In this document: one piece after another, positions 24,359 through 27,515 of the stretch | How positions within the stretch are numbered: the stretch's first letter is position 1 | Layout: every line of letters starts with the position of its first letter | Assembly: GCF_034259205.1 (NCBI RefSeq) | Contig: NZ_CP139487.1 | Location: 3,472,001-3,536,000 of the forward strand | Reading direction: 5' to 3' | Length of the DNA stretch: 64,000 nt | Origin: Peredibacter starrii | GTDB lineage: Bacteria; Bdellovibrionota; Bacteriovoracia; Bacteriovoracales; Bacteriovoracaceae | Notes under the pieces: generated by a model | The model's input: only the letters and a program-made list of their open reading frames with translations | Databases searched by the model: none | Told to the model about the DNA's origin: nothing | Made by a program: the position numbers and the translations under genes

Positions 24359-24838
24359 ATGTTAGCTAGAAAAAAGACTTCAAAACAAGGTAAATCCCTC
24401 CCATCTGAATGGCTAGAAAGTCTAAATCGACTTTTAAATGAAACATACAAAAGTGAGTGTAAACAGAACGGTCGTTATTTCGACGTATATGGACAAGTAT
24501 ATCCAGAAGAACTTCTTCTAACGGTTTCGTATCTCTCAGAGAAAGATGAGTATCTTTCTCCGATTACTTGTTTCCTTTCTTGCGAGCCAGATCAGATGGC
24601 CACAGAAGAAAAAGTAAAAGAGACTCAGGCGAATTTCATCGATATCGTGGGCCTCTTCTTCGATGAGATTTTTGCTGATTCTGAATGGGATGAGTTTGAG
24701 CCAACTTGGCAGGAAGTAAGTCACAAAAACCAGAATTACTTCTATAAGCTCTCAAGAGAGAACATCAACCTCACTCTGGAGGCCGATAAGCTTCTAGGAG
24801 AGGAATTTCAGGACCTTGAAGAGGAAACTGACCACTAA
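24359..24838 (+). CDS. Hypothetical acidic protein (159 aa)
   Basis: No family recognised. Basic first 13 residues, then a strongly acidic alpha/beta protein with many Glu, Asp and aromatic residues (EWDEFEPTWQEV) and an acidic tail. No signal peptide or membrane segment. AAGGCGGGG lies upstream of the ATG, and a hairpin follows the stop by 23 nt, so it is a single-gene unit divergent from the thiolase. Confidence 0.6.
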   Translation: MLARKKTSKQGKSLPSEWLESLNRLLNETYKSECKQNGRYFDVYGQVYPEELLLTVSYLSEKDEYLSPITCFLSCEPDQMATEEKVKETQANFIDIVGLFFDEIFADSEWDEFEPTWQEVSHKNQNYFYKLSRENINLTLEADKLLGEEFQDLEEETDH

Positions 24839-24960: not shown

Positions 24961-25428
24961 ATGTCGATGAAGACTCTTTCCCTCATTTTGACATTCATCC
25001 TTCCTTTAAGTGCCTTTGCTGCACCTGCGGATATCTACAAATCTCTTGGCCTCACACAAGGTAAAGTTGAAGTCATTAAAGATGCTGATGATAACTGCTC
25101 TGATGGCCCGTTTCGTTTCGTAGGTAAAGAAGGCTCAGAAGTACTTATGGTTGGCCCTACTATTACTTTTCATCAACCTACCAAAGAGAAGTTGAACTCT
25201 GTAAAAGCTGATGCTGAAACATGTGCAGAAGACGTAGAAAGCAAGCTTCTTGGTAACAGACTTTTAATGAAGACCACTGTTCACTCTTGTCCCAAGGATC
25301 AGAAGAAGCTAGAACACGTGTCTGAAGAACTACTTGAAGTTAATAAAGATCAGATTAAATACACCAAAAAAGACAATCTCAGGAAAATTGAGTGCATTTT
25401 AAAGTGGAGCGCGAATGATAAAGAATAA
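24961..25428 (+). CDS. Small secreted protein of unknown function
   Basis: 155 residues with signal peptide (1-20, ending AFA). The mature part carries four cysteines (in DNCSD, ETCAED, HSCPKD, IECIL), likely two disulfides in the periplasm, and the repeated theme of a beta-sandwich. No family recognised. Its ATG has no Shine-Dalgarno and lies 6 nt after a -10 box. The second Met (residue 3) also lacks one. The 3' end overlaps the next gene by 14 nt, so the two are coupled. Confidence 0.65.
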   Translation: MSMKTLSLILTFILPLSAFAAPADIYKSLGLTQGKVEVIKDADDNCSDGPFRFVGKEGSEVLMVGPTITFHQPTKEKLNSVKADAETCAEDVESKLLGNRLLMKTTVHSCPKDQKKLEHVSEELLEVNKDQIKYTKKDNLRKIECILKWSANDKE

Positions 25429-26134
25429 AATCATTCCTCTCCTATTTCTGCTCTCATCTTTCGAGGCCTTTGCTTCAAACGAAGATGTTATCAAACAAGG
25501 CGTTAAGGCCCTTACAAGTACTGCCATTCAAGGCCCAACTGTCACCTGTGAAGAAGAATCACTCAAACTCAGCAAGAAGTATTACGGCAATGGAGCAGAT
25601 TGCTCAAAATTCATTGATAGCAATGGAAAGTTAGGTCCTCTGGGAAAGACGATTGTTTCACACATCAGCTCTATTCCTGGCTCTCAATACTTTCGTAAAG
25701 ACAGTGTCGGTCTTCAGATGGCCTGTCCTAATTGGGTAAACCTCAGCAGAGAACAACAGGCCTTTTATTGGGTCTGGGTTTTTGCGGCGATTTCCTGGAA
25801 GGAAAGTACTTGTGGTGCAGAAACATTAAATAAAAAGGCCACTCACGGAACTGCAGCTGGATTGCTTCAGCTAAATCAAAACCGAGACGATCGCGATTGG
25901 AGAGGTGGAGATAGTGGAAACAGCTGTGCTGTCGCCAATATTAGGCCGGATGTAGCGAATCTTAAATGCGGCCTTGAGATCATGAATGAACAGTTGAAAG
26001 GTAAAAAGGGCGTTTACGAAGGTAATGGAACGCTATTTGGCCGAGGGGCACACGCCTACTGGCATGAGATCCGAAAGAAAGATGGCGGACTGATTATGCG
26101 ACTCGTGAGGGACTTCCCTCTCTGTAAGAAATAA
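25415..26134 (+). CDS. Secreted lytic-transglycosylase-like protein
   Basis: 239 residues with signal peptide (1-20). The core, AAISWKESTCGAETLNKKA then GTAAGLLQLNQ, matches the SLT/lysozyme-like pattern in which a Glu within x-x-x-E-S starts the active site (here Glu130) and G-x-x-Q-L follows. Cysteines (in TCE, DCS, MAC, STC, SCA, KCG, LCK) suggest disulfides, fitting a periplasmic enzyme that cuts peptidoglycan glycan strands. It is coupled to the small secreted protein upstream by a 14-nt overlap, so that protein might be a partner or inhibitor. A non-enzymatic lysozyme-like fold is the alternative. Confidence 0.78.
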   Translation: MIKNKIIPLLFLLSSFEAFASNEDVIKQGVKALTSTAIQGPTVTCEEESLKLSKKYYGNGADCSKFIDSNGKLGPLGKTIVSHISSIPGSQYFRKDSVGLQMACPNWVNLSREQQAFYWVWVFAAISWKESTCGAETLNKKATHGTAAGLLQLNQNRDDRDWRGGDSGNSCAVANIRPDVANLKCGLEIMNEQLKGKKGVYEGNGTLFGRGAHAYWHEIRKKDGGLIMRLVRDFPLCKK

Positions 26135-26158
26135 AAAAGGCTCCTTTCGGAGCCTTTT
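26135..26158. terminator. Bidirectional Rho-independent terminator
   Basis: AAAAGGCTCC (26135-26144), TTTC loop, GGAGCCTTTT (26149-26158): a perfect 10-bp stem with A/T flanks that works in both directions between convergent genes. Confidence 0.85.
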
Positions 26159-26159
26159 A

Positions 26160-27416
26160 TCATTCGTCTTCGTAACGAAGTGAACTAGAGATTGTTTCAA
26201 TTCCGATATCATCATCAGAATCATCATCATCCACCGCATTTTCAAATTCATCCTCTTCGAAATCAAATTCAGAAGTGATGTTAAGCTCATTAAGAACTTT
26301 GTAGAACTCTTTATCATCAGAAAGATCTGAAAGAAGAGCTTCGATATACTTCGGTGGGTATTTAGAAATAAGCTCTTCGATATACTCCTGAAGTTTACCT
26401 TCTTTAAGGATATCGCGCTTCTTCTGTACCGTTTTCCAGTTCTTTAGGTAGTGCAGACGACAGTAGCTTTGAGTCGTGCGAATGTTGTCACAGCCCTTCT
26501 CAATACACTCATCGTTTTTAGCATCAATGAAGAAATCCATTGTCGCGATTGATTCAGCGATTTCCTTCCAATTGAAGTGTTCGCGAAGTTGCGCAATTTC
26601 ATCAGCAATGTTGTTTTCCAGATCAGCTAGAACAGCATTGTTGTATTTCTTCGAAGGCTTAGATTGGAAAAGATCAACGTGACCATCTTCTTCTTCGTAG
26701 GCCTTCTTACCTGTTTTTTTCTTCTCTTTAGATTTTTTGTAGTCCTCTTCGAACTCATCAAAATCATCATCTTCAGAAGGGCGTTTTTTAGATTCTACAA
26801 CTTCTTCTTCACCGTCGTATTCTTCACCGCCAAGATCCTCATCATCAAAATCCTCGTCCTCATCGTCGAAGTCTTCTTCATCTTCTTCGTCAGATGCTTT
26901 CTTAGATTTTTTAGTAGAGGCCTTATCAGCTTTTGCCTTCGCTTTTTCAGCTTCTTTATCGGCCTTAGCTTTAAGCTTTTCAGCTTCTTTATTTTTCTTT
27001 TCTAATTCTTTTTGTTTTTTCTTATCTGCTTCAGCTTTCGCCTTCTCTTTCGCCGCAAGAGCTTTTTCTTTCTCTTTGTCTTTGGCAGCTTGAGCTTTGG
27101 CCTTTTCAGCATCTTTAGCAGCTTGTGCTTTTTCTTTCGCAAGAAGAGCTTTCTCTTTTTCTTTTAGCTTCTTCTCTTGTTCTTTTGAAAGAGGTTTTGC
27201 CTTTGGAGCAGCAGCTTTAGGCGCAACTTTCTTTTCAACTTTCTTTGGAGCCGGGGCCGCTTTCTTAGCTGGAGCTGCCGGTTTCTTTGCAGGAACTTTT
27301 TTTGCCATTGGTGCCGCTTTTTTTGTTGGAGGAGCTTTCGCTACCGGTTTTTTGACCGCAGCTTTTGCTACTGGTTTTTTCACTGGCATTTTAGCAGCAG
27401 GCTTCTTTTTCGCCAT
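26160..27416 (-). CDS. Histone H1-like protein with acidic middle and C-terminal C-C-C-H zinc-type motif
   Basis: 418 residues in four parts. Residues 1-75 are Lys/Ala/Pro repeats (KKPVAKA, AKKAAPAPKK) like histone H1 tails. Residues 76-170 are a Lys/Glu/Ala charged coil. Residues 175-245 are mainly acidic. Residues 255-418 form a folded domain with C304-x4-C309-x9-C319-x2-H322, a likely zinc site, and an acidic end. H1-like tails bind DNA or RNA without sequence preference. The C-terminal domain is probably the specific part. ribosome site GGAGAAAAAC lies before the ATG. Role in chromosome compaction is an inference. Confidence 0.82.
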   Translation of the reverse strand: MAKKKPAAKMPVKKPVAKAAVKKPVAKAPPTKKAAPMAKKVPAKKPAAPAKKAAPAPKKVEKKVAPKAAAPKAKPLSKEQEKKLKEKEKALLAKEKAQAAKDAEKAKAQAAKDKEKEKALAAKEKAKAEADKKKQKELEKKNKEAEKLKAKADKEAEKAKAKADKASTKKSKKASDEEDEEDFDDEDEDFDDEDLGGEEYDGEEEVVESKKRPSEDDDFDEFEEDYKKSKEKKKTGKKAYEEEDGHVDLFQSKPSKKYNNAVLADLENNIADEIAQLREHFNWKEIAESIATMDFFIDAKNDECIEKGCDNIRTTQSYCRLHYLKNWKTVQKKRDILKEGKLQEYIEELISKYPPKYIEALLSDLSDDKEFYKVLNELNITSEFDFEEDEFENAVDDDDSDDDIGIETISSSLRYEDE

Positions 27417-27515
27417 GTTTTTCTCCTCAAATAATAACAGACGCGTGCACTACGCGAATAAAACAAATTTAATGGACACTCTAGCAAACAGAGTGTCCAT
27501 TGACGAGCGTAAAAA

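Follow-up and report, generated by a model that had tools for sequence, protein, structure and literature searches.

Which function can be assigned to a predicted protein of Peredibacter starrii that carries a histone H1-like tail and a putative zinc finger in one chain? Its gene lies on the reverse strand of the 64,000-nucleotide stretch of DNA that was analysed (the window), and the following features were recognised in it and at its borders.

26160-27416, (-): whole ORF, 418 aa and stop codon; H1-like tail, coil, acidic block, zinc-finger/helix domain and acidic tail
27423-27426, (-): GGAG ribosome-binding site, 6 nt 5' of the start codon, read from the sequence
27177-27416, (-): residues 1-80, K/A/P-rich histone H1-like tail, by composition; variable in length and missing from some lineages
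26892-27176, (-): residues 81-175, charged K/A/E-rich coil, by composition
26682-26891, (-): residues 176-245, acidic block, by composition
26508-26681, (-): residues 246-303, predicted helical lead-in, conserved among near relatives only
26451-26507, (-): residues 304-322, C-x4-C-x9-C-x2-H finger, from sequence and alignment; predicted, pLDDT of the block 91-95
26262-26450, (-): residues 323-385, helical part of the core, with an invariant Tyr and near-invariant Trp, Leu, Pro, Asp and Phe
26163-26261, (-): residues 386-418, acidic C-terminal tail with the end RYEDE, by composition
26135-26158, (-): terminator-like hairpin just 3' of the stop codon, from a hairpin scan
27471-27501, (-): terminator-like hairpin between this gene and the upstream acyl-CoA dehydrogenase-like gene, from a hairpin scan

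Organisation of the gene and its product

The initial annotation described an H1-like tail, a charged coil, an acidic block and a C-terminal domain, and the residue composition contains all of these blocks. Residues 1-80 (26 K+R, 2 D+E, 23 A and 15 P) form the long K/A/P-rich stretch with few acidic residues that characterises bacterial proteins with H1-like tails; the coil contains 36 K+R and 20 D+E, the acidic block 38 D+E and 11 K+R, and the last 33 residues 16 D+E and a single K+R. The finger motif was found exactly at the bases originally assigned to it. The ORF begins with ATG and is single copy in its own genome. Since terminator-like hairpins lie on both sides, the gene looks like its own transcription unit and appears to be monocistronic in the window; four such hairpins were found in the region, compared with 2.0 expected from shuffles. 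The codon usage ranks fifth among the 56 window ORFs for likeness to ribosomal and RNA polymerase (RNAP) genes, which may be a weak hint of good expression.

Conserved finger/helix core

The conserved unit consists of the finger and about 65 residues after it, predicted to form helices. The alignment of 81 cores (87 rows kept, less seven weak, truncated or small double-finger ones, L130, L131, L132, L133, L137, L138 and L139, plus the window row) has a mean column identity of 56%. The ligand places C7, C12, C22 and H25 are retained in 81, 81, 80 and 76 rows, respectively, in an alignment that leans to the finger, as its source profile already holds the finger and a Cys-pattern filter was applied; no profile match lacked the pattern. 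The conservation of the Cys/His set, on which the assignment of a zinc-type domain had been made to depend, is thus evident. The five remaining rows have two Cys, two Asp and one Tyr at the fourth place; in family f12 (loci L067 and L068, and also L157), the replacement of His is Asp.

Outside the metal ligands, Arg23 and Tyr26 are present in all 81 rows, Trp30 and Leu45 in 80 and Pro57 in 79, and near-invariant R, Y, W, L, P, D and F positions were found. They demand a specific folded surface, which makes it very improbable that the protein is a polyanion or metal buffer, i.e., a mixed-charge disordered chain soaking up nucleic acid or zinc with no specific partner, even if the mixed basic-acidic composition is consistent with such a role. 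A structure model covering 167 residues was of low quality (pLDDT 64, pTM 0.35); the AlphaFold2 model of the 90-residue core contained the finger (pLDDT 91-95) and five helices, with an overall pLDDT of 82 and a pTM of 0.51, where the predicted packing of the helices is not certain.

Similarity to known families and folds

Searches with the full protein returned 0 Pfam families up to E 10, and no Pfam, NCBIfam or PDB family matched the core above the cut-off, in line with the earlier remark that the combination does not correspond to a named family. PDB chains showed no significant similarity to the core by sequence or fold; with neither model did Foldseek reveal a match at E up to 0.001, and a second look at six chains gave Z-scores of 2.1 and 2.0 only. 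A known non-DNA-binding enzyme, the match that would have spoken against the initial annotation, was not found, and an enzymatic identity was rejected, the sub-threshold Pfam, NCBIfam and PDB matches being scattered and unrelated. The Pfam search of the full protein up to E 10 contained no winged-helix globular domain of linker histones. Neither Pfam nor Foldseek (E up to 0.001) indicated a histone fold of the Bd0055 type, as far as the folds listed go. No Pfam or NCBIfam match above the cut-off pointed to an AlgP/PhaF-type N-terminal domain or a phasin, and no Pfam match to the RNAP-interaction domain CarD_TRCF or to an OB-fold domain as in SSB was obtained; the genome's own SSBs are encoded elsewhere. 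This protein was not found described in the open-access literature searched, supplements aside.

The finger represents a type that recurs elsewhere, and the helical part after it had no match in any library searched. The pattern C-x4-C-x(8,9)-C-x2-H-Y is presumably the ligand spacing of the finger class of phage HNH/HTH proteins, and the spacing and the metal-site residues of the family agree with those of HNH/HTH-associated fingers (81, 81 and 80 Cys; 76 His and 2 Cys among 81). Sub-threshold matches to phrog_5351, phrog_1271 and phrog_12258 were obtained for 51, 44 and 23 of the 81 members, with the best PHROG E value of 1.7e-4 over 81 scans and E 0.022 or worse for the window member. Short overlays of the predicted finger were obtained in the viral structure library BFVD, all with E >0.1; two of them are with named phage HNH proteins (1.0 and 1.5 Å; 26 and 28 columns; E ~1). 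Zf_WRKY19 (PF24906) was matched weakly in 3 of 32 members. The likeness to phage HNH/HTH fingers and Zf_WRKY19 comprises the ligand spacing and the local sequence; unlike the phage proteins, the protein here has no HNH or HTH domain, and its finger is followed by a helical domain. The zinc-type domain, introduced as undescribed, hence belongs to no named family, but its finger resembles those of phage HNH/HTH proteins, below significance. An HNH nuclease was rejected: there is no HNH match, and the resemblance is confined to the finger.

Distribution of the core

With the C-terminal 166 residues as the sole query, much as had been proposed, matches were found in 55 of 58 relatives and to no named family. 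A 32-row profile matched 333 of 368 genomes of the phylum, which we infer to be Bdellovibrionota, and 231 of the 234 good ones, nearly all matched genomes having a single copy; the finger and helical core thus define a single-copy family. Because the C-terminal region recurs to this extent, the ORF is more than chance, and a spurious low-complexity frame is ruled out by the conservation in the relatives and the phylum. The 31 loci from the named collection scan bear the names Bacteriovorax, Bacteriovoracaceae, Halobacteriovorax, Bdellovibrio, Oligoflexia and others, some labelled 'Proteobacteria bacterium'. Three of the 234 good genomes have no profile match, and in family f7 only a weak finger-only relative remains (loci L153 and L154, which cluster apart from the finger family in the neighbourhood comparison), so the core is not strictly indispensable.

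Outside the phylum, the core was found in 0 of 127 distinct genomes, in sets of 20, 17, 54 and 39 from unspecified phyla that had no positive control. The 20 are the genomes new in a search of 388, counted as outside because the list of 368 covered the whole phylum; three of them were later labelled 'same domain'. The absence of the core outside Bdellovibrionota is, therefore, not proven. At the limits set, 72,556 plasmid records and 50,697 phage records contained no relative, and none of five pattern matches in IMG/VR was confirmed; an origin as a mobile, phage or plasmid gene was rejected on these grounds. The core is a marker for the phylum, and a single-copy, near phylum-wide protein with no curated family or paper found is a prime candidate for lineage-specific core machinery.

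Several genomes contain additional matches. Second copies of the gene in G348 and G337 (L135, L136) no longer have an intact ligand set (His replaced by Tyr; Cys replaced by Ser) and are perhaps decaying or re-purposed paralogues. The second match in G291, G302 and G053 is a small protein with two consecutive C-x4-C...C-x2-H-Y/F fingers (L137, L138 and L139), belonging to a different family. The contig position and frame length of L134 (G131:C61) equal those of the match in G093 (272-748, 249 aa), so that G131 may owe its second copy to contamination.

Basic and acidic tails

Tail statistics were obtained for 77 members with a complete N-terminus, taking the first ATG as the start. The finger is preceded by 9 to 374 residues (median 179); in 48 of the 77 members the tail comprises 100 or more residues and has a K+A fraction of at least 0.4, and 13 have at most 60 residues before the finger, while the whole proteins of L073, L075, L076, L084 and L085 (109-121 aa) consist of the core and a short N-terminus. 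The H1-like tail is, therefore, an accessory of many lineages and not the essence of the family; the designation 'histone H1-like protein' is justified for the tail composition, but not as a description of what is conserved.

Such a tail could belong to a nucleoid architectural protein, where it would coat or condense DNA, the finger would select the site or the partner, and phase-like behaviour would be tuned by the acidic blocks. This appears unlikely on balance, in spite of the composition of the tail here and in the 48 long-tailed members and of the weak finger matches, which are to DNA-acting phage proteins. The H1-like tail protein AlgP, as far as the relevant text goes, is described as DNA-binding (PMC9239181), and a review notes, in a passage on the subject, that further unidentified proteins may remodel the chromatin of B. 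bacteriovorus (PMC11318664). Some lineages, however, are almost tail-less, and the proteins named in the accessible text of the B. bacteriovorus nucleoid proteomics study are Bd0055, HU, Dps and Bd1238, and this protein was not recognised among them (PMC10627809). The 'chromatin-like' behaviour suggested at the outset is a live option, but one option only, as the gene neighbours in two other lineages point just as much to transcription or translation.

The C-tail is acidic: its charge ranges from -2 to -18 and is -8 or lower in 68 of the 77 members, with a core net charge of -3 to +8. An acidic-aromatic tip (an aromatic and at least two acidic residues among the last six) is present in 62 members and missing in 15, compared with 26 of 574 neighbour ORFs, some of which are spurious, the relatives not being independent. 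The C-terminal tip of SSB is an acidic tail with a C-terminal aromatic residue, and the genome's own SSB ends in ADDIPF, so a tip of this type is in use here. Many members of the finger family share the acidic tail and the C-terminal aromatic, as an analogy only; unlike SSB, they have no OB fold, and the aromatic residue of the window protein stands four residues from the end.

Genomic context

Upstream of the gene, in the window's own group, lie genes that we take, from their sequences, to encode acyl-CoA dehydrogenase-, enoyl-CoA hydratase- and hydroxyacyl-CoA dehydrogenase-like proteins; acyl-CoA and thiolase genes are the neighbours in this group, and other genes stand there in other lineages. 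The acyl-CoA dehydrogenase-like and thiolase-like genes would suit a tether with its tail on the nucleoid and its finger/helix core holding a cargo, e.g., a granule. In the available account, AlgP determines where polyphosphate granules lie, and a comparable tail presumably allows PhaF to tether PHA granules (PMC9239181). Such a tether is improbable here, given that no phasin-type match was found and that the metabolic neighbours are replaced in lineages that keep the core.

Of 52 loci (L058 and L152 left out), 18 have a MiaB/RimO-family gene downstream in the same orientation; matches above the cut-off were to MiaB at L080, L082, L062, L153 and L154, and to RimO at L078. In family f2 (L080, L082 and L083), the stop of the finger gene overlaps or abuts the start of the next gene (-3, 0 and -31, by ORF bounds). 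Loci L078, L079 and L081 contain a co-directional run of rpoA, rplQ, a thioredoxin-like gene, the finger gene, a pseudouridine synthase gene and a MiaB/RimO-family gene, with the identities tested on L078; in gene names, it is an rpoA-rplQ-rluB-rimO run. The weak finger-only relative of f7 adjoins MiaB as well (L153 and L154), which supports descent.

Possible function

The rpoA, rplQ, miaB, rluB and rimO contexts and the near-universality of the core suggest that the finger/helix protein is a lineage-specific adaptor that serves a machine acting on nucleic acids, with RNAP or the ribosome/RNA-modification apparatus as the likeliest one; a rough probability of 0.4 is assigned to this reading. 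The finger would hold one zinc and, together with the helices, would dock on a conserved partner, either a protein or a nucleoprotein; the H1-like tail would clamp DNA or RNA with no sequence preference, and the acidic block and the acidic-aromatic tip may shield the basic surface or dock a second partner. Judged from sequence, the presence in 231 of 234 good genomes, the core outliving the tail, the near-invariant ligands, the MiaB overlap, the rpoA-rplQ run, the net charges of core and C-tail and the enrichment of the tip would all argue for the adaptor. Counted against it are the acyl-CoA/thiolase neighbours in the window's group, where the gene seems monocistronic, the possibility that the rpoA/rplQ/miaB synteny is ancestral housekeeping order, and the facts that the core is not strictly indispensable and that 15 of 77 members lack the tip. 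It is rather doubtful that RNAP or the ribosome has, in the core, a near-essential subunit or cofactor that defines the phylum; the core would then be a small domain family of a new type, to which an H1-like arm tying the machine to the nucleoid was added in many lineages. The protein is a concrete candidate for studies of genome packing and expression in bacterial predators.

Known systems offer partial parallels. As described in the available text, AlgP and PhaF of Pseudomonas also have a long K/A/P-rich, H1-like and probably disordered tail on a folded domain (PMC9239181); their tail is C-terminal with KPAA repeats, whereas the tail here precedes the folded part, a finger/helix domain, at the N-terminus, and is variable and evolutionarily dispensable. 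Myxococcus CarD, according to the part of the source concerned with it, is a global regulator that binds RNAP and has the zinc partner CarG, and contains an acidic stretch and a basic disordered tail that histone H1 can replace (PMC8156234). The acidic stretch, basic tail and zinc link are common to both, but the protein here has no CarD_TRCF domain, it combines the zinc motif and the tail in a single chain, and the order is reversed. By analogy, and within what these sources cover, AlgP and CarD may be precedents for an H1-like tail acting as a nucleic-acid clamp on an adaptor. The Bdellovibrio histones and the ZZ histones share, in the text available, the phylum and DNA-packing context and, for ZZ, a zinc domain joined to a histone part (PMC10627809, PMC11390915); here Pfam gave no histone-fold match, and the ZZ sites are C4 and C2H2 in a different order (PMC11390915).

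A second conserved neighbour

Another family with no name lies near the finger gene.

24359-24838, (+): neighbour gene; in 29 of 51 loci, it and the finger gene are convergent

The 51 loci leave out L058, L150 and L152 (L058 and L152 being duplicates), and the gap between the two genes is 14-34 bases in nine of the 29 convergent loci. The product, about 160 aa long, gave no Pfam match above the cut-off, and the family occurs in 302 of the 368 phylum genomes. A predicted protein of 239 aa with no Pfam match (25415-26134, (+) in the window) is encoded between these two conserved genes, an arrangement confined to some of the near relatives. Many members of the second family end in His, often as LH.
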